Source of the DNA: Streptomyces sp. NBC_00878
Lineage (GTDB): Bacteria; Actinomycetota; Actinomycetes; Streptomycetales; Streptomycetaceae
DNA length: 64,000 bases
Assembly (NCBI RefSeq): GCF_026341515.1
Contig: NZ_JAPEOK010000001.1
Location: 4,588,001-4,652,000 of the forward strand
Direction: 5' to 3'
Shown: piece after piece, positions 10,786 to 50,720 of the stretch
Position numbering within the stretch: the first letter of the stretch is position 1
Layout of the letters: every line of letters begins with the position of its first letter
Program-made: the position numbers and the translations under genes
Notes under the pieces: model-generated
Database searches by the model: none
What the model was told of the DNA's origin: nothing
What the model saw: only the letters and a program-made list of their open reading frames with translations

Positions 10786-10800
10786 CTGATGTACCGTCAG
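10786..10800. promoter_or_regulatory. CTGAC-type palindromic operator (site 1)
   Basis: CTGATGTACCGTCAG, with AAT before and ATT after it, ends 4 bp before the ATG of the lipid-transfer gene. It lies in the divergent gap with the acyl-CoA dehydrogenase. It matches the shared palindrome at several other catabolic promoters in the window. A site so close to the start would block transcription or initiation when bound. Confidence 0.75.
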
Positions 10801-10804
10801 ATTC

Positions 10805-12097
10805 ATGACTGGGGCGACGGGCACTGGGGCTGGGGCTGGGACCGGAAGTAGAACTGGGACTGGGACTGGGACTGGGACTGGGACTGGAACCGGGAGTCGG
10901 CCTCGGGCTCGGACTCGGACACGGGGTGGGCGGAAGGTGGCGGTGGTCGGCGTGTCCCTCTCCGACTGCGGCCGGGTGGACGAGGCGACGCCGTACGCGC
11001 TGCATGCCCAGGCCGCCCGCCGGGCGCTGGCCGACTCGGGCCTGGACCGCACGGTGATCGACGGCTTCGCGTCGGCGGGCCTCGGCACGCTGGCCCCGGT
11101 CGAGGTGGCCGAGTATCTGGGCCTGCGGCCCACCTGGGTCGACTCCACGTCCGTCGGCGGATCCACCTGGGAGGTCATGGCTGCCCACGCGGCGGACGCG
11201 ATCGCCGCCGGGCACGCGAACGCGGTCCTGCTGGTGTACGGATCCACCGCCCGCGCGGACATCAAGGCGGGCCGCCGCACGGGCAACCTGTCGTTCGGCG
11301 CGCGCGGCCCGTTGCAGTTCGAAGTCCCGTACGGCCACACGCTGATCGCGAAATACGCGATGGCCGCGCGCCGCCACATGCACGAATACGGCACGACGCT
11401 GGAGCAGTTGGCGTCGGTGGCGGTGCAGGCGCGGGCCAACGCCGCGCTGAATCCGGACGCGATGTTCCGGGACCCGATCACGGTCGACGACGTCCTGTCG
11501 GGCCCGATGATCGCGGACCCCTTCACCAAGCTGCACTGCTGCATACGGTCCGACGGCGGGGCGGCGGTCCTGCTGGCGGCGGAGGAGTACGTACGGGACT
11601 GCCGTACGGCTCCCGTGTGGGTACTCGGCACCGGGGAGCACGTCTCGCACACGACGATGTCCGAGTGGCCGGACTTCACGGTGTCACCGGCGGCGGTGAG
11701 CGGCCGAACCGCGTTCCAGCGGGCGGGAGTTGGCCCGGAGGACATCGACTTCGCCGAGATCTACGACGCCTTCACCTATATGACGCTGGTGACGTTGGAG
11801 GACCTGGGCTTCTGTGCGAAGGGGGAGGGCGGGGCGTTCGTGGACGCCGCGAAGGGGCGGCTGACGGTCGGCGGCGAGTTCCCGGTCAACACGGACGGGG
11901 GTGGCCTGTCGGCCCAACACCCGGGCATGCGGGGCCTGTTCCTCCTGGTGGAGGCGGTACGTCAACTGCGCGGCGAGGCGGGCCCCCGCCAGATCCACCG
12001 CCCTGACGGCGGCCTCCCGGAACTCGGGGTGGCGTCGGGAACGGGCGGCTGGTTCTGCTCTTCGGCGACGGTGGTGCTGGGCCGAGAGATGTCGTGA
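10805..12097 (+). CDS. Lipid-transfer protein / thiolase-like acetyl-CoA acetyltransferase
   Basis: A 430-residue thiolase-fold protein of the Ltp/SCP-x type. Recognisable family sequence starts at GRKVAVVGVSLSDCGRVDE (about residue 41). It continues with SVGGSTWEVMAAHAADAIAA, DPFTKLHCCIRSDGGAAVLL, DFAEIYDAFTYMTLVTLEDL and NTDGGGLSAQHPGMRGLF. Ltp proteins catalyse thiolytic or retro-aldol cleavage of CoA thioesters, usually with a DUF35 partner; the DUF35 gene at 14900 is a candidate. The first 40 residues are a Thr/Gly-rich repeat from a GGGACT-type microsatellite and are absent from the fold, so the true start could lie downstream. The palindrome at 10786 suggests shared regulation with the divergent dehydrogenase. 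Confidence 0.88.
   Translation: MTGATGTGAGAGTGSRTGTGTGTGTGTGTGSRPRARTRTRGGRKVAVVGVSLSDCGRVDEATPYALHAQAARRALADSGLDRTVIDGFASAGLGTLAPVEVAEYLGLRPTWVDSTSVGGSTWEVMAAHAADAIAAGHANAVLLVYGSTARADIKAGRRTGNLSFGARGPLQFEVPYGHTLIAKYAMAARRHMHEYGTTLEQLASVAVQARANAALNPDAMFRDPITVDDVLSGPMIADPFTKLHCCIRSDGGAAVLLAAEEYVRDCRTAPVWVLGTGEHVSHTTMSEWPDFTVSPAAVSGRTAFQRAGVGPEDIDFAEIYDAFTYMTLVTLEDLGFCAKGEGGAFVDAAKGRLTVGGEFPVNTDGGGLSAQHPGMRGLFLLVEAVRQLRGEAGPRQIHRPDGGLPELGVASGTGGWFCSSATVVLGREMS
10818..10905 (+). repeat. GGGACT-type hexanucleotide microsatellite
   Basis: Several GGGGCT, then about six GGGACT-like units run in frame and give the Thr-Gly N-terminus of the thiolase-like protein. As with the gene across the divergent operon, the repeat lies between the predicted start and the first conserved residue. 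Confidence 0.85.
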
Positions 12098-12123
12098 GAC
12101 TGGGAGTGGGAGGGAATGGGTGG

Positions 12124-12174
12124 GGGTGGGTGGGGACTGGCCATCGTCCTGACCTGCGGGTGGGTGGGGACTGG
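12124..12174 (+). repeat. 34-bp tandem duplication
   Basis: GGGTGGGTGGGGACTGG occurs at 12124-12140 and again at 12158-12174, giving a 34-bp period. It lies downstream of the thiolase-like gene and reaches the broken end of the dihydrofolate-reductase-like fragment. Confidence 0.85.
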
Positions 12175-12178
12175 TCGC

Positions 12179-12301
12179 GCACAGCAACTGCCGTACGACC
12201 GACACGCCCATCTCGTCGTTGAAGTACGGAAAGTGCCACTGGTCGGGCGCCTCGACGACACCGTCGAGCGAGATGAACAGGCCGGCGCTGATCTTCCTCA
12301 T
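12179..12301 (-). pseudogene. Truncated dihydrofolate reductase/RibD-like protein (5' remnant)
   Basis: The minus strand starts with a good ribosome site (GGAGGAATGCC before the ATG) and encodes MRKISAGLFISLDGVVEAPD, then QWHFPYFNDEMG. This is the standard N-terminus of the small dihydrofolate reductase-like (RibD C-terminal) family of about 190 residues. Homology stops after about 40 residues, where the frame runs into low-complexity repeat sequence and then antisense to the thiolase-like gene. About 80 percent of the gene is missing. Upstream signals are intact, which suggests a fairly recent deletion or element insertion. Confidence 0.8.
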
Positions 12302-12417
12302 GGCATTCCTCCAGGTTCCGGCGGGAGCTGGTCCATGAACTCCGTGTCGTCGAGTTAGACACCAGCGTCGGAAGGAACTAATCGCCGCTGGCCGAACCCT
12401 TCAGCTCACGACCCGAT

Positions 12418-12963: not shown

Positions 12964-13199
12964 GGGGGAGGTTCCTTCCGGGCGGCGGGGAGGCGGGGAG
13001 GTGAAGCAGTGGGGCAGTGGAGCAGTGGAGCAGTGGGGCAGTGAACCCTGCGATCAACTGGGTTCAACAATGCCGTCGCCCGCACGCCCCAACGAGACAG
13101 CACGCACCCGAACCCATGCTGGTGCTGGCTCCACCATGGAAGGGGGGTCCTCCTGCCGAACAGCCGGTCTGAGCCGGAGGCAGACGCGACAATCGACCC

Positions 13200-13877: not shown

Positions 13878-13916
13878 GCCCGCCGGCGGGCATCCGACAC
13901 CTGCGGCCGAGTGGGA

Positions 13917-14057: not shown

Positions 14058-14109
14058 CCCCACCGCCCCGCAGCCGCCCATGCAACCAAGCCCCCGCCCC
14101 ACCCGGGCG

Positions 14110-14899: not shown

Positions 14900-15361
14900 T
14901 TACGGCTGCTCGCGAGAAGCGGGCCGGAACACAGGAACCGTGACCGCCCCCTGTGCCTCCTCGGTTCGGAAGGCCACCTCCACCGCCATCCCCACCCTCA
15001 GCGATTCCTCCCCGCACTCCACCACCTCGGTCATCATCCGCGGCCCCTCGGAGAGGTCGACGACGGCGGCGACGTACGGCGTACGGGCCCCAAAGGGCGG
15101 CAGGTCGTTGCGGTGGACGACAGACCAGGTGTAGAGCGTGGCGCTGCCGCTCGCCCGTTCCCAGGTGACGTCCTCGCTCCAGCAGTACGGGCAGAACTCG
15201 CGGGGGTAGTGGTGGGCGCGCCCGCACGCCCCGCACCGGCGCAGGAGGAGGTGCCCCTCGGCGGCCGCTGCCCAGTAGCGGCGAGTGAAGGCGTCGACCT
15301 CCGGTACGTCGAACCGCGTCACCGTCACCGTCACCGCCGCATCCCCGTCAACTCTCGCCAC
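14900..15361 (-). CDS. Zn-ribbon/OB-fold (DUF35) protein
   Basis: A 153-residue DUF35 protein. The N-terminal helix RFDVPEVDAFTRRYWAAAAE leads into a four-cysteine zinc ribbon (RRCGACGRAHHYPREFCPYC), then an OB-fold (SATLYTWSVVHRNDLPPFGA, TPYVAAVVDL). This is the full-length form, with the helix used to contact the thiolase or hydratase partner. It lies 28 bp downstream of the DoxX-like gene on the same strand, under the CTGAC palindrome at 15865. The lipid-transfer thiolase at 10805 is the nearest complete candidate partner (inference). Confidence 0.9.
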   Translation of the reverse strand: MARVDGDAAVTVTVTRFDVPEVDAFTRRYWAAAAEGHLLLRRCGACGRAHHYPREFCPYCWSEDVTWERASGSATLYTWSVVHRNDLPPFGARTPYVAAVVDLSEGPRMMTEVVECGEESLRVGMAVEVAFRTEEAQGAVTVPVFRPASREQP

Positions 15362-15389: not shown

Positions 15390-15839
15390 TCAGAAGAACC
15401 CCAGCGCGCTGTCCAGCGACCACGTCTGCCACGACATCCCGAAGAGAGCCACCAGGGAGATCAGCGCCATCATCGCGTTCTGCCCCTGCTCGGCCCAGTC
15501 GTGGATCATCAGCACGAGGTAGAGGCCGTTGAGAAGCAGCCCGCCGACCAGGGCGATCGGGGTCAGGAAGCCCACGACCAGACCGAGCCCGAGGGCAAGT
15601 TCCGCGTACACGACGACGTACGCCATCGTGCGCGGACGCGGCGCGACCACGACGTCGAAGCCGCTGCGCACCGCGTGCCACCGGTGCTTCGCGGCGACGC
15701 CCGCCGCCCACGCGATCCCGGTCCCGCGCTCGAACCAGCCCTTCTTGTCCTTGTGCCGCCAGCTCTCCAGCCACCACAGCCCGAGGCCGATACGCAGCAC
15801 GGCGACCCATTCCGCACCGGTGAGCCAGATCGTGTCCAT
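15390..15839 (-). CDS. DoxX family membrane protein
   Basis: A 149-residue membrane protein with four hydrophobic segments: WVAVLRIGLGLWWLESWRHK, then YVVVYAELALGLGLVVGFLT, IALVGGLLLNGLYLVLMI and NAMMALISLVALFGMSW. The layout matches the DoxX/DoxD group, whose members donate or accept electrons at the quinone pool or support oxidative pathways; actual function is often unknown. It is the first gene of a two-gene unit with the DUF35 gene, under a catabolic palindrome, so it probably belongs to the same pathway. Confidence 0.85.
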   Translation of the reverse strand: MDTIWLTGAEWVAVLRIGLGLWWLESWRHKDKKGWFERGTGIAWAAGVAAKHRWHAVRSGFDVVVAPRPRTMAYVVVYAELALGLGLVVGFLTPIALVGGLLLNGLYLVLMIHDWAEQGQNAMMALISLVALFGMSWQTWSLDSALGFF

Positions 15840-15864: not shown

Positions 15865-15879
15865 CTGACGGAACGTCAG
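15865..15879. promoter_or_regulatory. CTGAC-type palindromic operator (site 2)
   Basis: CTGACGGAACGTCAG, preceded by AAT and followed by TT, lies 26 bp upstream of the DoxX start. One central base breaks perfect symmetry. Confidence 0.78.
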
Positions 15880-17491: not shown

Positions 17492-18820
17492 CTAGTTGAC
17501 GACCAGGCTCGCCGAGTTGTTCGTGCTGTCCGGGTCGAACGGGAAGCCCTCGCCCCACTCCGGGCGGAGCGTGACCGCCCCGCTCGCCCCGGGCACCACC
17601 GTGTCGACGCGCAGCCTGAAGTCGTACGTCGTCTCCGAGTTCTCCGTCACCCAGTGCGGCAGGGCGCAGACGTAGCGCGGGGCACCCGTCGAGCCCGGGT
17701 AGTAGCCGCCCTCCAGCGTGCGCGGGGAGCAGTCGGACGGAACGCCGGTGACCGTCGTGCCCTGCGGGACGCGCAGGTCGACGAGGGCCACCGCGTCGCC
17801 GGAGCCGAGGTTGGCGACCCAGGCCGGACCCTTGTTCCGGAAGGCCAGCGTGGCCGTCACCGTGTCACCGGCCGCGCCCGTGACCTCGGCGCCGCGCACC
17901 GCGAAGTCCGCCGTGTTGTCGGCGCCGATCTGCAGCGCCACGTAGTTGTCGTCGTCCCAGAGGTCGGTGGCACCGGCGCCGGGTTCGACAGAGAGATCCA
18001 GCCGCTCGTTGAACGCGTGCGCCGCGATCGCCACCTTCAGCGGCTCGGGCAGCTCGAAGGAGTCACCGGGCGCGAGGACCTCGTCGAAGGTGCAGGTGGC
18101 GTGCGCGACCGGGATCGAGGCCGTGTACGTGCACTCGGGGTACTTCGACACGAAGTCGAGCCCGTACGACGCGTACATCGTCAGCGTGAAGCCGTTCGAT
18201 GTCTCGTTGCCCTTGTTGGACAGGGCGAACGGGATCGTCTCCGTCGTCCCCGGCTCGGTCTCGCCGATCGGGGCCTCGTCACGGATGGAGAGGTCGGGGC
18301 CCGAGGCGACCGTGAGCGTCGTCTCGGAGCTTTCCTCCGCCACGAGAACGCCGCCCGGGCCGCCGGTGGCCGTCGCCTCGTACGTGATCCGGCCCTGCGC
18401 ACCGCGCTCGGCGCCGTCGGCCGCCCGGACCGTCAGGTGGATCTGCTTGTTGTCGCCCTCCCCGACGACGGGCACGTCCGGCATGACGCACACCGCGGTC
18501 GTGCCGCTCGGTGTGCAGTTCTCCGGCCAGGTCACCTCGGCGACCCCCGCGAGCCCCGAGACGTCCACGGTGATCCTGCCGTCGGTCACCGTGAAGGTGC
18601 TGTTGTCGTGGTACAGGCCCAGGTCGAGTTGGCGGGTCGCCGGTTCACCGCCGTCCGTGCCGAGCGGCAGGCTCTGCTCGTACGGCGCGTTGATCCACAG
18701 CTGGTCGGTCTCCGGTTCGGCGGCTGCCGCGGGCAGGGCCAGGCCCACCGTCAGCAGACCGGCCACCGCACCGGCACAGGCTCCTAGGCGCGCAGCGCGC
18801 CGGACGGAGTCGGGTCTCAT
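17492..18820 (-). CDS. Secreted protein with CARDB/DUF11-like repeats
   Basis: A 442-residue exported protein. The signal peptide is RRAARLGACAGAVAGLLTVG, then LALPAAAAEPETD with an AAA cleavage site. The mature part has several beta-sandwich repeats of the DUF11/CARDB kind (for example DLSIRDEAPIGETEPGTTET and ADFAVRGAEVTGAAGDTVTA). The C-terminus is FDPDSTNNSASLVVN with no LPxTG motif or final helix, so it is probably released rather than anchored. The ATG at 18820 has GGGGGA 6 bp upstream and is preferred over upstream starts. Function unknown; adhesion or cell-wall binding is a guess from domain type. Confidence 0.85.
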   Translation of the reverse strand: MRPDSVRRAARLGACAGAVAGLLTVGLALPAAAAEPETDQLWINAPYEQSLPLGTDGGEPATRQLDLGLYHDNSTFTVTDGRITVDVSGLAGVAEVTWPENCTPSGTTAVCVMPDVPVVGEGDNKQIHLTVRAADGAERGAQGRITYEATATGGPGGVLVAEESSETTLTVASGPDLSIRDEAPIGETEPGTTETIPFALSNKGNETSNGFTLTMYASYGLDFVSKYPECTYTASIPVAHATCTFDEVLAPGDSFELPEPLKVAIAAHAFNERLDLSVEPGAGATDLWDDDNYVALQIGADNTADFAVRGAEVTGAAGDTVTATLAFRNKGPAWVANLGSGDAVALVDLRVPQGTTVTGVPSDCSPRTLEGGYYPGSTGAPRYVCALPHWVTENSETTYDFRLRVDTVVPGASGAVTLRPEWGEGFPFDPDSTNNSASLVVN

Positions 18821-18937
18821 GTTTCCCCCAAGGGACTCGGTCGTCTCCTTCAACATGGTCAACACGTAGACATCCGGGCGTGGTTGAGGGTTGTCCTGGA
18901 ACGCTGCGCGATCCTTGCGTGATCTGTGCGCCGTATG

Positions 18938-19046
18938 TGCGTGGTTCTTGGCGATCCGTGCGTGGTTCGTGGCGATCCGTGCGTGGCCCGCGTTGGCCGG
19001 GGTCGGCCCGGGTGCGTCGGGGCCGACCCGGATGCGTCGGGGTCGG
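18938..19046. repeat. 21-bp and 20-bp tandem repeats upstream of the acyl-CoA synthetase
   Basis: Two and a half copies of a 21-bp unit beginning TGCGTGGTTC lie at about 18938-18990. Two copies of a 20-bp unit beginning CCCGGGTGCGTCGG lie at 19007-19046. They sit in the 370-bp gap between the secreted protein and the NDP-forming synthetase, before the operator pair. No ORF is supported here. Confidence 0.85.
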
Positions 19047-19119
19047 GTGCGTTCCCGGACGGGTTCCGGCGGGTACGAACCCTGTGTTCGCCACAAGTTC
19101 TTTGCGTGCAGACCAGTTC

Positions 19120-19158
19120 CTGACAGGGCGTCAGTTAAGTAATCTGACACTGCGTCAG
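19120..19158. promoter_or_regulatory. Paired CTGAC-type operators (site 3)
   Basis: CTGACAGGGCGTCAG (19120-19134) and CTGACACTGCGTCAG (19144-19158) lie 24 bp apart centre to centre, about two helical turns. They lie 33 bp upstream of the NDP-forming synthetase ATG. Pairs on the same face of DNA usually allow cooperative binding. Confidence 0.82.
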
Positions 19159-19190: not shown

Positions 19191-21416
19191 ATGCTTGGAT
19201 CAACCCACGGCACTCTCACCACCGACTCCCGCCGGGCCCGCGTCATCGCCTGCGGTGAGCAACCGGCCCCTGCCGTGCACGGCAGGCCCGCCGCCACCGA
19301 CGACCTCGACGTCAGCGGCCGGCCGCTGTACGCCGGCGTACCCGATCTGGACCGCTTCTTCCGCCCCGAGTGCGTGGCCGTCGTCGGCGCCTCGGACGCC
19401 GAGGGGCGACCGAACACCGGCATCACAAGTCAGCTGCTCGCCTGGGCCGAGCGGGTCGGCGCGCGGCTGCATCCGGTGCACCCGACGCGTGAGTCGGTCT
19501 TCGGCATTCCGTGCGTCGCCGCTGTCGGGGATCTGCCCGAACAGGTCGACCTTGCCGTGCTGTTGGTCTCCGACCCACTGCCCGTGATCGAGGAACTCGC
19601 CGAGTCCAAGGTGAAGTTCGCGGTCGCGTTCGCCTCCGGGTTCGCCGAGACGGGCGCGGAGGGCGCCGCCGCGCAGGCCCGGCTGGCCGCCGCCGTGGGG
19701 CGCTCCGGGCTGCGCCTGCTCGGCCCGAACACCAACCTCAATGCTTTTGAGAGGTTCCGCGAGGATTTGGATGGCCCCGCGATCGCGCTGATCACCCAGT
19801 CCGGCCACCAGGGGCGTCCCGTCTTCACCATGCAGGAACTGGGCGTACGGCTCTCGCACTGGGCGCCAACCGGCAACGAGGCCGACCTGGAGACCGCCGA
19901 CTTCATCTCCTACTTCGCCGAGCAGCCGGAGGTCGGCGCCATCGCCTGCTACGTCGAGGGGCTGAAGGACGGGCGGTCCTTCCTGCTCGCCGCGGACCGG
20001 GCGGCGCGGCGCGGGGTGCCGGTGGTGGCGGTGAAGGTCGGCCGCACCGAGACCGGCGCCCGTACGGCCGCCTCGCACACCGGGAAACTGACCGGCGCGG
20101 ATGATGTGGTGGACGCGGCGATGCGGCAGTACGGGGTGATCCGGGTCGACGGGCTCGACGAACTCCAGGACACGGCGGCGCTGTTGGCGCGTGCCCGGCC
20201 TTCGGCCGCCGACGGTGTCGTCGTCTACTCGATCTCGGGCGGCACGGGTGCGCACTTCTCGGACCTCGCGACGGAGGCGGGGCTGTCGCTCCCCAGGCTG
20301 TCGCCCGGCAAGCAGGCCGAGTTGCACGAGTGGATCCCCGAGTACCTCGACGTGTCCAACCCCGTCGACAACGGCGGGCATCCCGTGGGCGACTGGCGCG
20401 GGCGGAAGATCATCGACGCGATCCTCGCCGATCCGGAGGTGGGGGTGTTGATCTGTCCGATCACGGGCCCCTTCCCGCCGATGAGCGACAAGCTGGCGCT
20501 CGACCTGGTGGCGGCGGCGGAGGAGACCGACAAGCTGGTGTGTGTGGTGTGGGGGTCGCCGGTGGGGACGGAGGCCGCGTACCGGGAGACGCTGCTCGGG
20601 TCGTCCCGGGTGGCCACCTTCCGTACGTTCGCGAACTGCATCACGGCGGTTCGGGCGTATCTGGAGCACGGGCGGTTCGCCGCGTCCTACCGGTCGCCCT
20701 TCGACGAGGCGCCGCGTACGTCGTCTCCCTCGTTCCGCAAGGCCCAGGCGTTGATGCGGCCGGGGCAGCGGTTGAGCGAGCACGCGGCGAAGCAGTTGCT
20801 GCGCGCGTACGGGATACGGGTGCCGCGGGAGCAGTTGGTGACCAGTGCGGCAGCGTCCGTGCGGGCGGCCGGGCTCGTCGGCTACCCCGTGGTGATGAAG
20901 GCGTCCGGTGCGCAGCTCGCCCACAAGACCGAACTCGGGCTGGTGAAGATCGGGTTGACGTCGGCGAGTCAGGTTCGTGACGCGTATCGGGAGCTGACGG
21001 ATATCGCGCGGTACGAGGAGGTGCCGCTCGACGGGGTGCTGGTGTGTCAGATGGTGGAGCCCGGGGTCGAGATGGTCGTGGGGGTCACGCAGGACGCGCT
21101 GTTCGGGCCGACGGTGACGGTGGGGCTGGGCGGGGTGCTGGTGGAGGTCCTGCGGGATTCCGCTGTGCGGGTGCCGCCGTTCGGGGAGGAGCAGGCGCGG
21201 TCGATGTTCGATGAACTGCGGGGGCGGGCGTTGTTGGACGGGGTGCGGGGGCGGCCGCCGGCCGATCTCGACGCGCTCGTGGAGGTTGTGCTGCGGGTGC
21301 AGCGGATGGCGCTCGAACTGGACGGGGAGTTGTCCGAGCTGGACATCAATCCGTTGATGGTGTTGCCGCGGGGGCAGGGGGCGGTTGCGTTGGATGCGCT
21401 GGCGGTGTGTCGCTGA
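19191..21416 (+). CDS. NDP-forming acyl-CoA synthetase / acetate-CoA ligase family protein
   Basis: A 741-residue fusion of the two subunits of ADP-forming acyl-CoA synthetases. It has an N-terminal CoA-binding Rossmann domain (FRPECVAVVGASDAEGRPNT), then a ligase-CoA domain with the phospho-His region AASHTGKLTGADDVVDAAMR. The C-terminal ATP-grasp_5 domain has VGYPVVMKASGAQLAHKTEL and LSELDINPLMVLP. The family interconverts acyl-CoA and free acid with ATP or GTP. Here it could activate the substrate or recover energy from a product such as acetyl- or propionyl-CoA. It is preceded by two catabolic palindromes and is the only gene in its unit. Confidence 0.93.
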   Translation: MLGSTHGTLTTDSRRARVIACGEQPAPAVHGRPAATDDLDVSGRPLYAGVPDLDRFFRPECVAVVGASDAEGRPNTGITSQLLAWAERVGARLHPVHPTRESVFGIPCVAAVGDLPEQVDLAVLLVSDPLPVIEELAESKVKFAVAFASGFAETGAEGAAAQARLAAAVGRSGLRLLGPNTNLNAFERFREDLDGPAIALITQSGHQGRPVFTMQELGVRLSHWAPTGNEADLETADFISYFAEQPEVGAIACYVEGLKDGRSFLLAADRAARRGVPVVAVKVGRTETGARTAASHTGKLTGADDVVDAAMRQYGVIRVDGLDELQDTAALLARARPSAADGVVVYSISGGTGAHFSDLATEAGLSLPRLSPGKQAELHEWIPEYLDVSNPVDNGGHPVGDWRGRKIIDAILADPEVGVLICPITGPFPPMSDKLALDLVAAAEETDKLVCVVWGSPVGTEAAYRETLLGSSRVATFRTFANCITAVRAYLEHGRFAASYRSPFDEAPRTSSPSFRKAQALMRPGQRLSEHAAKQLLRAYGIRVPREQLVTSAAASVRAAGLVGYPVVMKASGAQLAHKTELGLVKIGLTSASQVRDAYRELTDIARYEEVPLDGVLVCQMVEPGVEMVVGVTQDALFGPTVTVGLGGVLVEVLRDSAVRVPPFGEEQARSMFDELRGRALLDGVRGRPPADLDALVEVVLRVQRMALELDGELSELDINPLMVLPRGQGAVALDALAVCR

Positions 21417-21832: not shown

Positions 21833-22612
21833 TTGATACTCCACACCACCGCCACCCACGTCTCATGGATCACCCTCAACCGCCCCGAAGCCATGAACGC
21901 CCTCACCCCCGACCAACGCGACCACCTGATCCAGCTGTTCGAGGCCGCCTCCGCGAACCCGGACGTACGGGCGGTCGTCATCACGGCGACCGGTCGCGGA
22001 TTCTGCGCGGGCGCAGACCTCCGCGGCGGCCCGCCGGCAGGCGACCGCGTCGCCGGCGACGTAGCCCGAGTCATCCGCCAAGGCGCCCAGCGCCTGATCA
22101 CCGCCGTCCTCGACTGCGAGAAGCCGGTGATCGCCGCGGTGAACGGCACCGCAGCAGGCATCGGCGCCCACCTCGCCTACGCCTGCGACCTGGTCATCGC
22201 CGCCGAATCGGCCCGTTTCATCGAGGTGTTCGTACGCCGCGGCCTCGTCCCGGACGGCGCCGGCGCCTACCTCCTGCCCCGCCTGATCGGTCCCCAGCGA
22301 GCAAAGGAGCTGATGTTCTTCGGCGACGCCCTGACCGCCGCGGACGCGGAACGCCTCGGGCTCGTCAACCGCGTCGTACCGGACGAGGAGTTGGAGAAGA
22401 CGGCCCGCACCTGGGCCGAACGCCTCGCCACCGGCCCCACCCGCTCGCTCGCCCTCACGAAGCACCTGGTGAACGCGTCCCTGGACACCGACCGGTCGAC
22501 CGCCTTGACCGCCGAGGCCACCGCACAGGAGATCAACATGACGACGGCGGACGCGAAGGAGGGGGTGACGTCGTTCGTGGAGCGGCGGAGCCCGGATTTC
22601 CGTGGTCGCTGA
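21833..22612 (+). CDS. Enoyl-CoA hydratase/isomerase family protein
   Basis: A 259-residue crotonase-fold protein starting at TTG, with GGAGG 6 bp upstream and the family N-terminus LHTTATHVSWITLNRPEAMN. Oxyanion-hole blocks are GRGFCAGADLRGGPPAGDRV and VNGTAAGIGAHLAYACDLVI. An acidic residue follows in FVRRGLVPDGAGAYLLPRLI. It would act on an enoyl-CoA intermediate. A longer reading from further upstream would run through the dispersed repeats and is rejected. The flavin reductase follows after 77 bp. Confidence 0.9.
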   Translation: MILHTTATHVSWITLNRPEAMNALTPDQRDHLIQLFEAASANPDVRAVVITATGRGFCAGADLRGGPPAGDRVAGDVARVIRQGAQRLITAVLDCEKPVIAAVNGTAAGIGAHLAYACDLVIAAESARFIEVFVRRGLVPDGAGAYLLPRLIGPQRAKELMFFGDALTAADAERLGLVNRVVPDEELEKTARTWAERLATGPTRSLALTKHLVNASLDTDRSTALTAEATAQEINMTTADAKEGVTSFVERRSPDFRGR

Positions 22613-22669: not shown

Positions 22670-22684
22670 CTGACACTCCGTCAG
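22670..22684. promoter_or_regulatory. CTGAC-type palindromic operator (site 4)
   Basis: CTGACACTCCGTCAG ends 5 bp before the ATG proposed for the flavin reductase. Together with the gap after the hydratase, it suggests that the reductase has its own promoter. Confidence 0.78.
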
Positions 22685-22689
22685 CTTCA

Positions 22690-23337
22690 ATGGGCAATGT
22701 GATGGGACATGCAGGGATGGCCGCCGCGGCCGTCCGGTATCTCAGGTCGGCCGGCGTCCCGGACACCACGGGCCGGGTCGAACCGCTCCCACGCCCGGAC
22801 CTGCGCGCGGTGGGCGACGACGAGCGCGCACCGATCGATCCGGCCGAATTCCGGCGCGTACTGGGCAACTTCGCGACGGGCGTCACGGTCGTCACCGCAC
22901 CGGCCACCGAAGGCGAGCGTGAGGACGGGCCGACAGGTCCGGCCGGATTCGCCTGCCAGTCGTTTTCGTCCCTCTCTCTTGACCCGCCGCTGATCGCGTT
23001 CATGGTCGCGCGTACGTCGACGACCTGGCCGCGCATCGCCCGCGCGGGCGTCTTCTGCGTGAACGTCCTCGGCGCGCACCAGGGCGACCTGTGCCGCGGT
23101 TTCGCGGTGAGCGGCTCCGACAAGTTCGCCGGGGTCGTCTACGACGCGGCCCCGGTCTCCGGCTCACCACGCCTCGCCGGCGCCCCCGCCTGGATCGACT
23201 GCACGGTCCACGCCGTCCACACGGGCGGCGACCACCTGATCGTGGTGGGCAGGGTGGACGCCCTGGGTACGGCGGACGGCGAGGAGGCGCCCCTGCTGTT
23301 CCATCGGGGGCGGTTCGGCGGACTCGCGGCCAACTGA
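22690..23337 (+). CDS. Flavin reductase family protein
   Basis: A 215-residue FMN-binding split-barrel reductase. Conserved blocks are FRRVLGNFATGVTVVTAPAT, GFACQSFSSLSLDPPLIAFM and ARAGVFCVNVLGAHQGDLCR, plus GDHLIVVGRVDAL. Family members (HpaC/HsaB-like) supply reduced flavin to two-component monooxygenases in aromatic or steroid ring oxidation. No large oxygenase partner lies next to it, so the partner must be elsewhere. The start is uncertain: MGNVMGHAG at 22690 or the ATG at 22702; the operator overlaps the leader, and a leaderless or very short 5' end is possible. Confidence 0.87.
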   Translation: MGNVMGHAGMAAAAVRYLRSAGVPDTTGRVEPLPRPDLRAVGDDERAPIDPAEFRRVLGNFATGVTVVTAPATEGEREDGPTGPAGFACQSFSSLSLDPPLIAFMVARTSTTWPRIARAGVFCVNVLGAHQGDLCRGFAVSGSDKFAGVVYDAAPVSGSPRLAGAPAWIDCTVHAVHTGGDHLIVVGRVDALGTADGEEAPLLFHRGRFGGLAAN

Positions 23338-42442: not shown

Positions 42443-43621
42443 TCAACCCTTCGGTTCCCTGGGAAGGCCGAGCACCCGCTCGGCGATGATCGTGCGCTGG
42501 ACCTCGTCCGAACCGCCGTAGATCGTGTCGGCCCGGCTGAACAGGAACAGGTGCTGCAACGCGTCCAGTTCGTAGGGCGCCGAAGCCGACCACTCCACCG
42601 GCCCCACCGCCCCCGCCGTTCCCCGCACCCGCATCGCCAGCTCCCCGAGCCGCTGATGCCACCGCCCCCACAACAACTTGGCCACACTGGGAGCACCCAG
42701 GCTCTGCCCCTGGCCCTGGCCCCCCGAACTCCCCAGCGTCCGCAGAGCGTTCCACCGCATGACCCGCAACTCGGCCCACTGCCGCACGAGACAGTCCCGT
42801 ACGACCGGATCGTCCACCGCACCCGTCGACACGGCCGCCTCCACCACCCGCCCCAACTCCTGGGCGAAGCCGATCTGCTGGGCGAGCGTGGACACACCCC
42901 GCTCGAAGCCGAGCAGGCTCATCGCGACCTGCCACCCGTTGCCCTCGCCCCCGACGACGTGCTCCACGCGCGCGTGCGCCCCGTCGAAGAAGACCTCGTT
43001 GAACTCGCTCGTCCCCGTCATCTGGCGAATCGGCCGCACCTCGATCCGCCCCGGCTGGTCCATCGGTACGAGCAGAAAACTCAGCCCGCGATGCCGCCGC
43101 GACCCCGCCTCCGTACGGGCCAACACGAAGCACCAGTCCGCCTCGTGCGCGAGCGAGGTCCAGATCTTCTGCCCGGTGACCCGGTACCCGCCCGCGTCGC
43201 CGTCCCGTACGGCCGCCGTACGGACACCCGCGAGGTCGGACCCCGCACCCGGCTCGCTGTACCCCTGACACCAGAGCTCGTCCCCGGCAGCTATCGGCGG
43301 CAGGAAACGGGACTTCTGCTCGTCGCTGCCGTGGGCGATGAGGGTGGGGGCAAGCAGGTTCTCCCCGATGTGCCCGGTACGGGCGGGAGCCCGGGACCGC
43401 GCATACTCCTCGGCCCAGACAACCTGCTGACTGAGCCCGGCGAGCCGATTCCCATACCCACCCTCGCCCCACCCGAGCCCGATCCACCCGGCCGCACCCA
43501 ACGTCCGTTCCCACGCCCCGCGTTCCCCGGCTCCGGCTCCGGCTCCGGCTACGTGCTCGGCCAGCCAGGCACGCGCCTCGGCCCGAAACGCCGCATCCTC
43601 CAACGTGAACCCGAAATCCAA
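42443..43621 (-). CDS. Acyl-CoA dehydrogenase
   Basis: A 392-residue acyl-CoA dehydrogenase. It contains WCQGYSEPGAGSDLAGVRTA, QKIWTSLAHEADWCFVLART and the C-terminal FLFSRADTIYGGSDEVQRTI, then IAERVLGLPREPKG. The YGGSDEVQ pattern marks the FadE29-like half of alpha/beta dehydrogenases, whose partner carries the GGIGFTWE type. The partner could be either of the dehydrogenases at 9460 or 47325. A short Ala-Gly repeat near residue 25 comes from a CCGGCT microsatellite. Operon position is after the SDR gene; a copy of the dispersed element lies in the 94-bp gap. Confidence 0.93.
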   Translation of the reverse strand: MDFGFTLEDAAFRAEARAWLAEHVAGAGAGAGERGAWERTLGAAGWIGLGWGEGGYGNRLAGLSQQVVWAEEYARSRAPARTGHIGENLLAPTLIAHGSDEQKSRFLPPIAAGDELWCQGYSEPGAGSDLAGVRTAAVRDGDAGGYRVTGQKIWTSLAHEADWCFVLARTEAGSRRHRGLSFLLVPMDQPGRIEVRPIRQMTGTSEFNEVFFDGAHARVEHVVGGEGNGWQVAMSLLGFERGVSTLAQQIGFAQELGRVVEAAVSTGAVDDPVVRDCLVRQWAELRVMRWNALRTLGSSGGQGQGQSLGAPSVAKLLWGRWHQRLGELAMRVRGTAGAVGPVEWSASAPYELDALQHLFLFSRADTIYGGSDEVQRTIIAERVLGLPREPKG

Positions 43622-43715: not shown

Positions 43716-44639
43716 TCACTCCTGCCCAGCCGCGCGCCGCGCAGTTCGCGCAGCGGCCCGCGCCATCTCCTCCACCCGCTCAAGCAACGGCATCGGATCC
43801 ACCCCCACCGTCCCCGGCAGAAAGTCCGCGATCCTCTCCGGCGTCCACGCCGCCCCCTCCGCGTACCCCGAACGGAGTTCCCTCGGCTGCGCCCACACCG
43901 CGATCTTCGGCCCCGCGATGGTGTAGACCTGCCCGGTGATCCGCTCCTCCCGCGCCCGCTCGGACAGCAGGTACACCACGAGCGCGGCCACATCCTCGGG
44001 CTCGCCGATCTCCTTCAACTCCATCGGCACGTTCGCCGACATGCGCGTACGGGCGACCGGCGCGACCGCGTTCGCCGTGACCCCGTACTTGTGGAGCCCG
44101 AGCGCGGCGCTCCGTACGAGCGAGATGATCCCGCCCTTCGCGGCGCTGTAGTTGGCCTGGGAGACGGACCCCTGGTGGTTGCCGCTGGTGAAGCCGATGA
44201 GCGTGCCGGAGCCCTGCCGCCGCATCACGGCGGACGCCGCGCGGAAGACCGTGAACGTGCCCTTCAGGTGCGTGGCGATGACCGGATCCCACTCCTCCTC
44301 GGACATGTTGAAGAGCATCCGCTCGCGCAGGATCCCGGCCACGCACACGACCCCGTCGAGTTGCCCGTACGTCTCCAGTGCCGTGTCGACGACCCGCTGT
44401 CCGCCCGCCATCGTCGAGATGTCGTCGGCCACCGCGACCGCGCTTCCGTCGGCCGCCTCGATCTCCTTGACCACGGCGTCGGCGATCTCGCTGGTCGGTT
44501 CCGCGCCCTCGATCGACACCCCGTAGTCGTTGACGACGACCCGTGCGCCCTCGGCCGCGGCCGACAGCGCCACCGCGCGCCCGATGCCCCGGCCCGCCCC
44601 GGTCACGGCGACGACCTTGCCTGCCAAGAAGTTCCCCAC
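43716..44639 (-). CDS. SDR family oxidoreductase
   Basis: A 307-residue short-chain dehydrogenase. The cofactor motif is VVAVTGAGRGIGRAVALSAA, and the catalytic Ser and Tyr-Lys are in FTSGNHQGSVSQANYSAAKG. The C-terminal extension of about 50 residues (ELRSGYAEGAAWTPERIADF) resembles the multifunctional 17beta-HSD4-like group that oxidises 3-hydroxyacyl-CoA. It is the first gene of an operon and is preceded by a CTGAC palindrome 24 bp from the ATG. The cyclase gene is divergent with 97 bp between. Confidence 0.93.
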   Translation of the reverse strand: MGNFLAGKVVAVTGAGRGIGRAVALSAAAEGARVVVNDYGVSIEGAEPTSEIADAVVKEIEAADGSAVAVADDISTMAGGQRVVDTALETYGQLDGVVCVAGILRERMLFNMSEEEWDPVIATHLKGTFTVFRAASAVMRRQGSGTLIGFTSGNHQGSVSQANYSAAKGGIISLVRSAALGLHKYGVTANAVAPVARTRMSANVPMELKEIGEPEDVAALVVYLLSERAREERITGQVYTIAGPKIAVWAQPRELRSGYAEGAAWTPERIADFLPGTVGVDPMPLLERVEEMARAAARTARRAAGQE

Positions 44640-44662: not shown

Positions 44663-44677
44663 CTGACGGTCCGTTAG
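44663..44677. promoter_or_regulatory. CTGAC-type palindromic operator (site 5)
   Basis: CTGACGGTCCGTTAG lies 24 bp before the SDR start. One base breaks the right half (GTTAG). Confidence 0.72.
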
Positions 44678-44691: not shown

Positions 44692-44706
44692 TCTACGACC
44701 CGTCAG
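44692..44706. promoter_or_regulatory. Weak CTGAC-type operator (site 6)
   Basis: TCTACGACCCGTCAG has a good right half-site but a poor left one. It lies 31 bp before the cyclase start and 29 bp from site 5, so the divergent promoters may share a protein. Confidence 0.5.
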
Positions 44707-44736: not shown

Positions 44737-45663
44737 ATGTCGATGCCGGCCGAGTTCCACGAGATCGCCAAGCGCGTGAACAACTGGGGCCGTTGGGGGG
44801 CCGACGACGAGATCGGCACGCTGAACCTGATCACCGACGAGGTCATGCGCGAAGCCGCGGCGACGGTACGTACGGGCCGCCGCGTTCCGCTCGCGCTGCC
44901 GCTCCGGGAGGACGGTGTGCAGACCGGGATGATGCCGGGCCGGATCAACCCGCTGCACGCGATGGTGCAGATCAACCAGGAGCTGTTCGGGCCCGGCACG
45001 GTCGCGTGCAGCGATGACGCCGTGACGATGGGCCTCCAGGCGGCCACCCACTGGGACGCGCTGACCCATGTCTCGCACTCGGGAAAGATCTACAACGGCC
45101 GCCCGGCCGGCACCGTCACGGCCCACGGCGGCGCCGAGTTCAGCGGCATCGACAAGCCCCGCCACATCGTCTCGCGCGGCGTCCTCCTCGACGTGGCCCG
45201 CGCGCTCGGCAAGGACCGCCTCGACGGCGGACACGCGGTGACCCCGGAAGACCTCGAAGCGGCCGAGGAGATGAGCGGCACGAGGGTCCGCTCGGGCGAC
45301 ATCGTCCTCGTACGCACCGGCCAGATCCAGCTCTATCTGGCGGGCGACAAGCACGCGTACGCGTTCCCGTCGCCCGGCCTGTCCGTCCGCACCCCGGAGT
45401 GGTTCCACGCGCGCGATGTGGCCGCCGTCGCGAACGACACCCTCACCTTTGAGATATTTCCGCCGGAAATAGAGGACTTGTGGCTTCCCGTGCACGCCCT
45501 CGATCTGGTCGACATGGGCATGCTCCAGGGCCAGAACTGGAATCTCGAAGACTTGTCCACAGCCTGTGGACAAGTCGGCCGCCATGCGTTCCTACTGTCG
45601 GCGATGCCCGAACCGTTCGTCGGCGCCACGGGGACGCCGGTGGCACCGGTCGCGATCCTCTGA
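44737..45663 (+). CDS. Cyclase family protein (kynurenine formamidase-like)
   Basis: A 308-residue metal-dependent hydrolase of the cyclase family. The metal site is visible as ATHWDALTHVSHSGKIYNGR (H-x-D-x3-H). The N-terminus EFHEIAKRVNNWGRWGADDE and C-terminal LPVHALDLVDMGMLQGQNWN are typical. Family members hydrolyse formyl or lactone-type bonds, or dehydrate; this form is common next to steroid and aromatic degradation genes. The ATG has GGGGAG 5 bp upstream. It is divergent from the SDR operon under the paired palindromes. Confidence 0.9.
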   Translation: MSMPAEFHEIAKRVNNWGRWGADDEIGTLNLITDEVMREAAATVRTGRRVPLALPLREDGVQTGMMPGRINPLHAMVQINQELFGPGTVACSDDAVTMGLQAATHWDALTHVSHSGKIYNGRPAGTVTAHGGAEFSGIDKPRHIVSRGVLLDVARALGKDRLDGGHAVTPEDLEAAEEMSGTRVRSGDIVLVRTGQIQLYLAGDKHAYAFPSPGLSVRTPEWFHARDVAAVANDTLTFEIFPPEIEDLWLPVHALDLVDMGMLQGQNWNLEDLSTACGQVGRHAFLLSAMPEPFVGATGTPVAPVAIL

Positions 45664-47324: not shown

Positions 47325-48218
47325 TCATGTCCGGGGCCCCGGCGCGGCGGATTGCAGATCCTCGGCGAGCGCCTCCTCCGCCTCGGCCGCGCTCTGCCCG
47401 CGACGCGCCCGCAACCAGGCACGTTTGAGGTGAAGGTGCACGTCGGACTCCCACGTGAATCCCATCCCGCCGTGCACCTGGAGGCAGTCGCGGGCGCCGC
47501 GCTCGGCGGCCTCGTCGGCCAGCAGCCCGGCCGCCGCGATGTCGAGCGGATCGGCCGTGACGGCGGCCGCGTACACCGCGCCACGCGCCACCTCCACGCG
47601 CACCAGCATCTCGGAGCACAGGTGTTTCACCGCCTGGAAGGCCCCGATCGGCTGCCCGAACTGCTCACGGGTCCGGGCGTGTTGCACGGCCAGTTCGCAG
47701 GTGCGGGCGGCGGAGCCCAACTGCTCGGCGGCGGTCAGCAGCGCGGCCACCGGGTCGGGCGGCGCGGCGCGGGGCACCCGGTGCAGCGGTGTCAGCGGGT
47801 CCGCCGAGCGCATCGGGACGGCTCCGGTCACGTCTCCGCGTACGACGTCGGCGGCGTCCAGCCATTCGACGAGTGTGCCGTCGACGGCCGCGACGACGGT
47901 CTCTCCGGTGGCGGCACCGGGTACCTCGCCGGCCGCGAGGTGCGTGGCCACGAGCGGTCCGGTCAGCAGCGCCCGGCCGGCCTCCTCGAAGGCCAGCACC
48001 GCCTCCGGGAGCCCCAGTCCGACCCCGCCCGCCGACTCGGGCAGCCGCAGCGCGAAGAAGCCCGCCTCGCCCAACTCCCGCCAGAGCGCACGGTCGAGGT
48101 TCGGGGCGTCCGGGGCGTCCACGGCGGCCCGCAGCCGCTCCCGTCCGAAGCGCCGGACCAGCAGTTCGCGTACCCCCGCCCGCAATGCCCGTTGATCATC
48201 AGTGAGTTGGAAATCCAT
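47325..48218 (-). CDS. Short acyl-CoA dehydrogenase
   Basis: A 297-residue dehydrogenase, shorter than the usual 380 residues. It has MDFQLTDDQRALRAGVRELL and the C-terminal EQFGQPIGAFQAVKHLCSEM and QVHGGMGFTWESDVHLHLKR. The middle beta-domain is reduced, as in the ChsE1/FadE28-like subunits that need a longer partner for the FAD and substrate site. The gene lies 4 bp after the larger dehydrogenase at 48223, so a heterotetramer from one operon is the best model. It is the last gene after the amidohydrolase. Confidence 0.9.
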   Translation of the reverse strand: MDFQLTDDQRALRAGVRELLVRRFGRERLRAAVDAPDAPNLDRALWRELGEAGFFALRLPESAGGVGLGLPEAVLAFEEAGRALLTGPLVATHLAAGEVPGAATGETVVAAVDGTLVEWLDAADVVRGDVTGAVPMRSADPLTPLHRVPRAAPPDPVAALLTAAEQLGSAARTCELAVQHARTREQFGQPIGAFQAVKHLCSEMLVRVEVARGAVYAAAVTADPLDIAAAGLLADEAAERGARDCLQVHGGMGFTWESDVHLHLKRAWLRARRGQSAAEAEEALAEDLQSAAPGPRT

Positions 48219-48222
48219 ACGG

Positions 48223-49377
48223 TCACCGCCCCTTCGGGAGGCCCAGGATCCGTTCGGCCACGATGTTCCGCTGGATCTGCGAGGTGCCGGCCGCGATGGT
48301 GTACGAGAGGGACGACAGCCGGTCGAGCGTCCACCGGCTGTCGAGGTCGAGCGCCTCGGGGCCGAGGACCTCCGCCGCCGCGTCGTACAGCTCCTGCCGC
48401 GCGCGCGAGTACCTCAGTTTGAAAACCGAACCCCCGATGCCCGGCACTCCGCCCGCCCGCTCCGACTCGCTGACGTTCCACTGCGTGAGCCGCCACAGCG
48501 CGCGGAACTCGGCATTGAGACGACCGAGCCCGCGGCGCAGCACGGCGTCGTCCCAGCGGCCGTTCTTCCGCGCCTCGCGGGCGAGTTCGCCGAGGACGCG
48601 CCGGCAGGCCACCACCTCGCCCACGAAGGCCGTACCGCGCTCGAACGACAGCGTCACCATGGTCACGCGCCAGCCGTCGTTCTCCGCACCGACCCGGTTG
48701 GCGACGGGCACCCGCACCTCGTCGAGGAACACTTCCGCGAACTCGGTCGAGCCCGCGAGCGTACGCAGTGGACGTACCGTGATCCCCGGCGCGTCCATCG
48801 GCATCGCGAGCCACGAAATCCCCCGGTGCTTGGGCGCCTTCGCATCCGTCCGCACCAACAGCTCGCACCAGTCGGCGACTTCCGCGTGGGAGGTCCAGAT
48901 CTTGGAGCCGCTCACCACGTAGTCGTCGCCGTCCCGCCACGCGCGCGTGCGCAGCGCCGCGAGGTCCGAGCCGGCGTCCGGCTCGCTGAACCCCTGGCAC
49001 CACACCTCCTCGCCGCGCAGCACGGGCGGCAGCCAGCGCGCCCGCTGTTCGGCGCTCCCCTCGGCCGCGATGGTGGGCCCGGCGTGCAGCAGTCCGACGA
49101 AATTGGCCCCTACGTAGGGCGCGCCCGCGTTTTCCGTCTCCTCCAGGAAGATCAGATGCTGCGTGGGCGTGGCCCCGCGGCCCCCCGCGTCGATGGGCCA
49201 GTGAAGCCCCGCGTACCCGGCGTCGTACAGCGTGCGCTGCCATCCGAGGTCGTACGCGCGCCTGCCGGGCCAGTCGTCGGGCGAGGGCTTCGGAGGCAGC
49301 CCGGGGAGCACCTTGGCGAGCCACTCCCGCAGCCGCCCCCGGAAGTCCTCCTCCTCGGGCGTGTAGGAGAGGTCCAT
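48223..49377 (-). CDS. Acyl-CoA dehydrogenase
   Basis: A 384-residue dehydrogenase of the FadE29/ChsE2-like type. Characteristic parts are WCQGFSEPDAGSDLAALRTR, SGSKIWTSHAEVADWCELLV, and the C-terminal SSLSYTIAAGTSQIQRNIVA, then ERILGLPKGR. It pairs with the short subunit downstream to form an alpha/beta enzyme (inference from order and sequence). Substrates of this group include CoA thioesters of steroid or branched side chains. It starts 13 bp after the amidohydrolase stop; the junction holds a 14-bp tandem duplication of the start region. Confidence 0.93.
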   Translation of the reverse strand: MDLSYTPEEEDFRGRLREWLAKVLPGLPPKPSPDDWPGRRAYDLGWQRTLYDAGYAGLHWPIDAGGRGATPTQHLIFLEETENAGAPYVGANFVGLLHAGPTIAAEGSAEQRARWLPPVLRGEEVWCQGFSEPDAGSDLAALRTRAWRDGDDYVVSGSKIWTSHAEVADWCELLVRTDAKAPKHRGISWLAMPMDAPGITVRPLRTLAGSTEFAEVFLDEVRVPVANRVGAENDGWRVTMVTLSFERGTAFVGEVVACRRVLGELAREARKNGRWDDAVLRRGLGRLNAEFRALWRLTQWNVSESERAGGVPGIGGSVFKLRYSRARQELYDAAAEVLGPEALDLDSRWTLDRLSSLSYTIAAGTSQIQRNIVAERILGLPKGR

Positions 49378-49396
49378 TACTTGAGGTCCATCACTT
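49369..49396. repeat. 14-bp tandem duplication at an operon junction
   Basis: GAGGTCCATTACTT is followed at once by GAGGTCCATCACTT, and a third partial GAGGTCC follows. The duplication covers the start codon of the acyl-CoA dehydrogenase and the stop of the amidohydrolase, so two alternative ATGs exist in different frames; one yields only MDLK. Confidence 0.88.
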
Positions 49397-50584
49397 GTCG
49401 AGGTCCAGGCTCAGCATGCGGATGGCGTTCCCGCGCATCAGCTTGTAGACCGTCTCGTCGTCGAGGCCCTTCACATGGTCGAGGGCGACCTCCTTGGTGT
49501 GCGGGAAGGTCGAGTCGACGTGCGGGTAGTCGGTCTCGAAGGTCGCGTTGTCCCGGCCCACCACGTCCAGCGACGCGACGCCGTGCTTGTCGCGGAAGAA
49601 GCAGCAGAAGATCTGCCGGTAGTAGTAGGTGGAGGGCGGCTCGGGGATCAGGTCCCTGACCCCGCCCCAGGCCCGGTGCTCCTCCCACACGTCGTCGGCG
49701 CGCTCCAGGGCGTACGGGATCCAGCCCATCTGCCCTTCGGAGTAGGCGAGTTTGAGCTGCGGGAACTTCACCAGCACCCCGCTGAACAGGAAGTCCATCA
49801 TCGAGGCCATGGCGTTGTTGAAGCTGAGCGAGGCCTGAACGGCGGGCGGGGCGTCCGGGGACGCGGCGGGCATCTGGCTGCTGCTGCCGATGTGCATGTT
49901 GACGACCGTGCCGGTCTCCTGGCAGACCGCGAAGAACGGGTCCCAGTAGCCGGAGTGGATGGACGGCAGCCCGAGGTGGGTCGGGATCTCGGAGAAGGTC
50001 ACGGCCCGCACTCCCCGGGCCGCGTTGTGCCGGATCTCGGCGACCGCGAGGTCGATGTCCCAGAGCGGGATGATGCACAGCGGGATGAGCCGGCCGCCGC
50101 TGTCGCCGCACCACTCCTCGACCATGAAGTCGTTGTACGCGCGCACGCAGGCCAGCGCGACCTCCTTGTCGTGCGCCTCGGCAAAGGTCTGCCCGCAGAA
50201 CCGCGGGAAGGTCGGGAAGCAGAGCGAACCCTCGACGTGGTTCGCGTCCATGTCCTTGAGCCGCTCGGCCGGATCCCAGCACCCCGGCCGCATCTCCGCG
50301 CGCGTGATGCCCTCAAGGGTCATCTCGTCGCGGTCGAAGCCGACGGCGGCGATGTTGCGCTTGTACGGGAACTTGAGGTCCTCGTAGATCCACCAGTCGG
50401 TCGGCGGCCCGTCCGGGTCCATCGTGATCCGGTACTTGCCCGCCACGTAGGCGAGTTCACCGATCCCGGCCGTCAGCGGCTTGGGCCCGCGGTCCTGGTA
50501 CTTCTTCGGCAGCCAGGTCTCGAAGAGGTTCGCGGGCTCGATCACATGGTCGTCGACGCTGATGATGCGGGGCAGTTCGGTCAT
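49391..50584 (-). CDS. Amidohydrolase family protein (ACMSD-like)
   Basis: A 397-residue TIM-barrel metal hydrolase. The N-terminus IISVDDHVIEPANLFETWLP contains the D-x-H metal motif of ACMSD-like decarboxylases/hydrolases. Further metal ligands lie at VVNMHIGSSSQMPAASPDAP (His) and NATFETDYPHVDSTFPHTKE (Asp). It may decarboxylate or hydrolyse a cyclic intermediate. It is the first gene of the amidohydrolase-dehydrogenase-dehydrogenase operon and lies 33 bp from a perfect CTGAC palindrome. Confidence 0.93.
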   Translation of the reverse strand: MTELPRIISVDDHVIEPANLFETWLPKKYQDRGPKPLTAGIGELAYVAGKYRITMDPDGPPTDWWIYEDLKFPYKRNIAAVGFDRDEMTLEGITRAEMRPGCWDPAERLKDMDANHVEGSLCFPTFPRFCGQTFAEAHDKEVALACVRAYNDFMVEEWCGDSGGRLIPLCIIPLWDIDLAVAEIRHNAARGVRAVTFSEIPTHLGLPSIHSGYWDPFFAVCQETGTVVNMHIGSSSQMPAASPDAPPAVQASLSFNNAMASMMDFLFSGVLVKFPQLKLAYSEGQMGWIPYALERADDVWEEHRAWGGVRDLIPEPPSTYYYRQIFCCFFRDKHGVASLDVVGRDNATFETDYPHVDSTFPHTKEVALDHVKGLDDETVYKLMRGNAIRMLSLDLDK

Positions 50585-50616
50585 GAGTCCCCTCCGCCTT
50601 GGCCAACTGCAAGTAT

Positions 50617-50631
50617 CTGACGGACCGTCAG
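50617..50631. promoter_or_regulatory. CTGAC-type palindromic operator (site 7, perfect)
   Basis: CTGACGGACCGTCAG is a perfect 15-bp palindrome around a central A. It lies 32 bp before the amidohydrolase start, on the promoter shared with the divergent ligase region. Confidence 0.83.
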
Positions 50632-50705
50632 TTATCGGCCCCTTAGAAGGCTAGCCCCGCACCCCTGGACCGACAAGCCACCTGGCTCTACGCTCTCCAG
50701 CCAAT

Positions 50706-50720
50706 CTGACTACCCGTCAG
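50706..50720. promoter_or_regulatory. CTGAC-type palindromic operator (site 8)
   Basis: CTGACTACCCGTCAG lies directly before the structured leader of the acyl-CoA ligase. Its distance (89 bp) from site 7 gives each divergent gene its own site. Confidence 0.78.

Follow-up and report, generated by a model that had tools for sequence, protein, structure and literature searches.

A 15-bp palindrome with CTGAC and GTCAG arms around five central bases recurs in a 64,000-nucleotide stretch of the Streptomyces sp. NBC_00878 genome (hereafter the window; C1:4588001-4652000 in a genome of 11.1 Mb). We consider it probable that these palindromes are the operators of one dispersed acyl-CoA catabolic regulon, read by way of repression by the TetR-family protein encoded at 8159..8806 on the + strand (hereafter TetR-8159). 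The operator consensus is about (A)ATCTGAC-N5-GTCAGAT(T). This explanation is supported by the enrichment of the motif, its fixed spacer, its promoter position in the cluster, its conservation and its co-occurrence with the TetR gene in several families, as well as by an operator at the start of the TetR gene itself in other families. As far as sequence can tell, this would be a large and conserved TetR regulon that has no name yet and for which there is a strong candidate regulator. The interpretation as an unnamed catabolic regulon had been put forward in a sequence-only reading of the window, and it withstood both the genome scan and the comparison of orthologous promoters described below.

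That reading had placed palindromes at nine coordinates, and the described sequences were present at all nine. Both arms are exact at 15865..15879 (29.5 bits with the matrix described below), in the pair at 19120..19134 and 19144..19158 (21.1 and 29.3 bits), and at 22670..22684 (26.0 bits), 50617..50631 (33.0 bits, the top score of the window) and 50706..50720 (22.0 bits), all read on the + strand, as are the sites that follow. The claim that the arms are shared by all sites went too far for the remaining three. One mismatch is found in the AT-flanked site at 10786..10800 (CTGATGTACCGTCAG, CTGAT...GTCAG; 30.8 bits), which is conserved in Streptomyces, and in that at 44663..44677 (CTGACGGTCCGTTAG, CTGAC...GTTAG; 28.9 bits), and the site at 44692..44706 is weak and operator-like (13.2 bits). 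The window holds no further exact copies, as had been stated, but two other sites had been overlooked. The operator at 10702..10716 (CTGACGGCGCGTCAT, CTGAC...GTCAT; 21.7 bits) has one arm mismatch, is conserved in Streptomyces, and falls inside the open reading frame (ORF) of the adjacent dehydrogenase only if that ORF starts at 10716. A weak operator at 8151..8165 (CTGACGTCATGACAG, CTGAC...GACAG; 10.2 bits) lies over the TetR start codon. A one-mismatch copy at 2058, within a TetR-family ORF, looks like chance. Against the six exact copies found in the window, 100 order-3 Markov simulations produced 0.05 on average and 1 at most, while copies with up to two mismatches showed no excess (37 vs a chance mean of 41.5).

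Genome-wide, we counted 61 copies of the exact 15-bp core and 4 of a reversed control, and the 19-bp form ATCTGAC-N5-GTCAGAT, with up to two mismatches, occurs 63 times against 1; the AT flanks are common to the sites of this cluster. The 159 kb around the window contain 12 of the 61 exact copies, compared with 0.87 expected by length, and the regulon reaches about 60 kb upstream of the window. In the same 159 kb, the arms were found 12 times at a spacer of five bases, once each at 11 and 15, and not at all at the remaining spacers between 0 and 15. We placed 57 of the 61 copies on predicted genes: 25 were promoter-proximal, 20 lay within ORFs, 7 were in other intergenic positions, and 5 belonged to IS110 copies. 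The bare 15-bp word was dropped as a definition of the regulon on account of those 20 ORF and 5 IS110 copies.

The matrix, 21 bp long, was built from 14 sites of this cluster. It gave 19 hits of at least 10 bits in the 159 kb, all outside predicted genes, including the five that had not been used for training. Column-permuted matrices gave a mean of 2.06 such hits (maximum 23) and 0.02 hits of at least 19 bits. A matrix and a genome scan had been called for by the earlier reading, and the palindrome was not evenly spread over unrelated genes. The distance from site to gene start was 1-244 bp, and at most 75 bp in 24 of 44 cases, with starts taken from a simple codon-usage predictor that may err by some codons.

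Several copies of the word stood out for their surroundings. Five exact copies at loci L020, L025, L040, L046 and L055, each near position 4001, have like surroundings, and the copy at L020, which alone of the five was scanned, sits between two IS110-type transposase genes. An identical strong site, next to genes for an AMP-ligase and a hydratase, occurs near 7665 of L146 and near 448 of L147, where contig C1 ends and C3 starts; this is either a terminal repeat or an assembly overlap. Many of the genomes for which class-wide hits were listed by place share the word TTCTGATCCGTAGTCAGAT, which inflates the two-mismatch counts and probably belongs to a conserved RNA gene.

Orthologous promoters in Streptomyces keep the site. 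Eighty Streptomyces loci were fetched via the TetR gene, and the promoter of the dehydrogenase that starts at 10689 was readable in 69. Of these 69 promoters, 68 contained one or more sites that reach 15 bits and 47 contained at least two, although the dehydrogenases themselves are only 63-87% identical. The TetR start codon lies within CTGACnnnATGACAG in 80 of 80 loci. We must also note that the 57 bp ahead of the TetR gene (window 8102-8170) differ at only 0-5 positions over these loci. Because this leader is conserved as a whole, the conservation of CTGACnnnATGACAG is no independent footprint in Streptomyces; that of the leader exceeds what an operator needs and perhaps reflects further control elements or a leaderless transcript. 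The window also contains a putative mobile island, in which a partial check showed a Tn3 transposase at 33168-34472 and no tRNA. The regulon appears to predate the island because sites at the TetR locus are conserved in other Streptomyces, which is the basis of this relative age, rather than a dating of the island.

The earlier reading had also proposed the TetR protein at 8159 as the reader of the palindrome, and both the operator at ortholog starts and the distribution across genomes back this proposal. The protein matches TetR_C_38 (PF19352; 246.7 bits) and TetR_N (PF00440; 26.7 bits vs a cut-off of 24), which places it in the TetR family, and its model (pLDDT 92.8) has the all-helical TetR fold with a C-terminal domain. 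The ORF starts at 8159, whereas the predictor gives 8171. A GTSPATFYQYF-D segment, presumed to be the recognition helix, is invariant in 60 homologs, and identity is 92-99% in the 80 best of 577 relatives, all of them from Streptomyces. The closest fold to the model is that of EthR, followed by FasR, SaFadR and palmitoyl-CoA-bound DesT among others; this likeness is compatible with a lipophilic or acyl-CoA ligand for TetR-8159, as judged from the predicted structure. The best fold match, EthR from Mycobacterium tuberculosis, nevertheless shares only 17-19% identity, in a sequence match that covers part of the protein, and the operator and target (ethA) of EthR are unlike those described here.

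At a presence threshold of E up to 1e-20, TetR-8159 was found in 37 of 37 and 40 of 40 sampled genomes of family f1 (75 distinct genomes, same genus), in 14 of 14 genomes of f3, and in 69 of 394 genomes of a class sample; it was not found in the single f2 genome sampled. The exact site numbered 15-67 copies in 35 of 40 f1 genomes and 15-95 in f3. In family f16, the seven genomes with an ortholog carried 10-24 exact sites and the five without carried 1, 2, 3, 6 and 15 (p = 0.009, a rank test on counts across genomes that ignores relatedness, as do those for f20). The exact core was also enriched in f20 (p = 0.0003), where five genomes whose TetR matches were weak (E 1e-22 to 1e-26) count in neither group.

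From outside f1, we fetched 20 of 43 orthologs (families f3, f14, f15, f16, f20 and f24; several are close relatives). A site of at least 11 bits was present at the TetR start in 18 of the 20, as opposed to 25 of 157 other genes at the same loci, a set that includes likely targets. In f16, the operator can fall within the first codons of the TetR gene. Ten of the 26 operator-bearing genes beside these orthologs were scanned, and nine of the ten were acyl-CoA genes: the matches were to acyl-CoA dehydrogenase (three), CoA ligase (two), thiolase (two), ECH (one), SDR (one) and ALAD (one, at a 15.9-bit site). Because of its own-start operator in other families and its genomic distribution, TetR-8159 is most likely the reader of the operator, as judged by these comparisons.

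Sporichthyaceae (f15) present a separate picture. In 5 of 5 genomes, the palindrome occurs in 232-473 exact copies, with 2-7 for the control. Within a 400-kb sample (G063:C1:1706001-2106000, L213-L232), 15 of 24 exact copies were non-coding, and all 15 lay by gene 3′ ends; several copies overlap a stop codon. An exact copy was present in 8 of 43 gaps between convergent genes, in 5 of 157 tandem gaps and in 0 of 59 divergent ones. This gene-end palindrome may serve as a terminator hairpin of preferred type or as a road-block site.

The genes beside the operators point to acyl-CoA metabolism, although the claim that all sites lie directly upstream of CoA genes was too strong. The sites at 10702 and 10786 lie between an acyl-CoA dehydrogenase gene (9460..10716, - strand; Pfam assignment, start 10716 or 10689, IpdE2/PimD likeness below cut-off) and a gene for a thiolase or lipid-transfer-type protein (10805..12097, +; Thiolase_C_1; start may be 10937). 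The site at 15865 precedes a gene for a small MauE-like membrane protein (15390..15839, -; Pfam match below cut-off), and a DUF35 (ChsH2-type) gene comes next (14900..15361, -; PF01796 and PF12172). The pair at 19120 and 19144 is located between a gene with weak DUF11/CARDB repeat matches (17492..19096, -) and a divergent gene for an ADP-forming acyl-CoA synthetase (19191..21416, +; PF13549, PF13607, PF13380). An enoyl-CoA hydratase/isomerase gene follows (21833..22612, +; PF00378; its ORF opens at 21407), and the site at 22670 precedes a flavin reductase gene (22690..23337, +; PF01613), whose likeness to HsaB (187.9 bits) is below the cut-off of 230. Farther along, an SDR oxidoreductase gene (43716..44639, -), with an acyl-CoA dehydrogenase gene downstream (42443..43621, -) in a putative target operon, and a gene for a putative cyclase-family hydrolase (44737..45663, +; PF04199; ORF scanned from 44530) flank the sites at 44663 and 44692. 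The last two sites are flanked by an amidohydrolase_2 family gene (49391..50584, -) and an AMP-forming acyl-CoA ligase gene (50759..52399, +; PF00501; start may be 50888). Below the former lie genes for an acyl-CoA dehydrogenase, PimC-like below cut-off (48223..49377, -), and an acyl-CoA dehydrogenase-like protein with below-cut-off matches (47325..48218, -).

Overall, the neighbours of strong sites include acyl-CoA dehydrogenases, AMP- and ADP-forming CoA ligases, thiolases or lipid-transfer proteins, enoyl-CoA hydratases, a MaoC hydratase, SDRs, luciferase-like monooxygenases, a flavin reductase and amidohydrolases, with DUF35 partners downstream in the same apparent operons. Thirty-eight genes adjoin strong sites, and after removal of two IS110 genes, 36 were scanned. 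Acyl-CoA ligase, dehydrogenase, thiolase or hydratase families accounted for 12 of these; by family, we found four AMP-ligases, three acyl-CoA dehydrogenases, three SDRs, three luciferase-like monooxygenases, two thiolases and two amidohydrolases. Among 79 control genes (of 237 available), no such family had two or more members within the best 25 of 108 families; the controls include at least one acyl-CoA dehydrogenase, that at 42443-43621, which is itself in a putative target operon, and another carries a succinyl-CoA-ligase-type ATP-grasp domain. The genes may form the complete degradation set that the earlier reading saw in them, and the substrates are probably acyl-CoA-activated cyclic or branched lipid-like acids. 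A steroid pathway was considered: one ligase exceeds the FadD3-family cut-off (775 vs 657), yet the IpdE2 and HsaB likenesses fall below theirs, and steroid pathways were absent from 55 of 57 Streptomyces genomes (PMC4810484). A link to an Mce transporter at locus L048 was also discarded, as the ATPase matches DrrA-type ABC families best and no Mce family was among the best 25 of 190.

The DNA binding, repression, ligand and substrate that we infer for TetR-8159 would combine as follows. The single-copy TetR_C_38 protein would bind the palindrome as a homodimer, with ATCTGACGGTCCGTCAGAT as the predicted target DNA. It would occupy operators located mostly up to 75 bp upstream of, or over, start codons, including its own, and would block transcription from there. 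An acyl-CoA or a similar lipophilic intermediate, bound in the C-terminal pocket, may then free the protein from the DNA.

A number of observations weigh against this scheme. The top scores of the cluster are circular, since the matrix was trained on 14 of the 15 hits that reach 19 bits, and the strong-site targets outside CoA metabolism include genes for a transposase, PhoX and a SARP-type regulator as well as some that lack Pfam matches. In Streptomyces, the site of the regulator itself has the lowest score (10.2 bits) and sits in a leader that is conserved throughout. Five of the 40 f1 genomes keep the TetR gene with only 1-11 exact copies, orthologs in f14, f24 and f6 occur without high exact counts, and in f20 the orthologs are not accompanied by enrichment of the 19-bp form (2.03 vs 1.83 per Mb; p = 0.23). 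Conversely, no TetR was detected in the f16 genome G200 (68% complete), where 15 sites are present, and some genomes without a TetR match carry 26-36 copies of the 19-bp form (36 in G411, 26 each in G250 and G259). The Sporichthyaceae counts were set aside as support for a regulon, the word being at gene ends there.

Some of these points bear on rival explanations. The weak own site in Streptomyces would suit a catabolic-regulon operator that is read by another regulator, such as a SAV151-like protein or a different member of the genome's set of more than 120 TetR_N matches, and the cluster and its surroundings contain at least four further TetR genes (4555081, 4578189, 4590118 and 4663324; 150 of 399 candidates scored). 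None of these four has an own-start matrix hit of at least 9 bits, whereas 18 of the 20 TetR-8159 orthologs fetched from other families have an own-start site, with operator-bearing CoA genes adjoining. SAV151 of Streptomyces avermitilis is itself a TetR regulator listed with CTGAC and GTCAG arms, but its two listed sites have ten bases between the arms rather than five (PMC10933834), and arms at spacer 10 numbered 0 in the 159 kb here vs 12 at spacer 5. We give a different reader a small chance. It is very unlikely that the palindrome is a hairpin, terminator or mobile repeat that stands near these genes by accident: the word is able to form a short hairpin, IS110 copies in this genome carry it, and Sporichthyaceae have it at gene 3′ ends by the hundreds per genome, but the cluster sites are promoter-proximal, mostly between divergent genes and with preferred AT flanks, and the palindrome is retained in 68 of 69 diverged promoters.

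We assign a similarly small chance to a third rival, in which the regulator is an activator or the regulon serves CoA homeostasis instead of growth on one substrate class. The targets are diverse, and the direction of regulation is inferred from site position; that position, within 75 bp of the start in 24 of 44 cases and sometimes over start codons, is nevertheless the usual place of a repressor.

The earlier reading did not recognise the motif as any named one, and a search of the open-access literature, with subscription papers mostly outside it, likewise gave no name and no publication about the N5 motif or about regulators of the PF19352 family. In function, the regulon would resemble those of KstR/KstR2, FadR or AccR type, and its operator appears to be none of theirs. 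The KstR and KstR2 regulons contain dehydrogenase, FadD3, thiolase and hydratase genes, and the operators are TNNAACNNGTTNNA for KstR and AAGCAAGNNCTTGCTT for KstR2. The likeness lies in a TetR lipid-degradation regulon and in the FadD3-family ligase above cut-off; the difference lies in the shared ATCTGAC-N5-GTCAGAT element, unlike the KstR/KstR2 consensus, in a comparison made without a scan for those sites. KstR and KstR2, which govern the cholesterol regulons of mycobacteria and Rhodococcus, are TetR-type repressors of large lipid-degradation regulons (PMC3068626, PMC1995591), and KstR2 has been linked to C/D-ring genes (PMC4810484). AccR of Streptomyces avermitilis is, as proposed here for TetR-8159, a TetR-type repressor in Streptomyces, with fadE and echA genes as its targets and GTTAA-N6-TTAAC as its operator (PMC10933834); another element is shared by the sites in our window, for which no scan for AccR sites was made. 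SbtR (TTHA0167) and PfmR (TTHB023) of Thermus thermophilus, a distant host, are TetR proteins with TGAC...GTCA operators, PfmR sites being located at fatty-acid biosynthesis genes; in the sites published for them, TGAC and GTCA are separated by six bases, compared with five here (PMC7022988), and CTGAC/GTCAG arms at spacer 6 numbered 0 in the 159 kb against 12 at spacer 5. The site of SCO3201 also differs (PMC7324645).

The analysis provides an operator, a candidate regulator and several dozen promoters of a catabolic network across the Streptomyces-like genomes sampled. We see an even chance that TetR-8159 acts as a previously undescribed master regulator in the catabolism of lipid-type acyl-CoAs, for a pathway with a new natural substrate, kept in single copy in all Streptomyces-like genomes sampled, more conserved than its dehydrogenase, and with its operator kept across several actinobacterial families. 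If true, control of acyl-CoA breakdown by one switch throughout the genus would matter for the supply of antibiotics, because acyl-CoAs feed polyketides as starter and extender units (PMC8546615).

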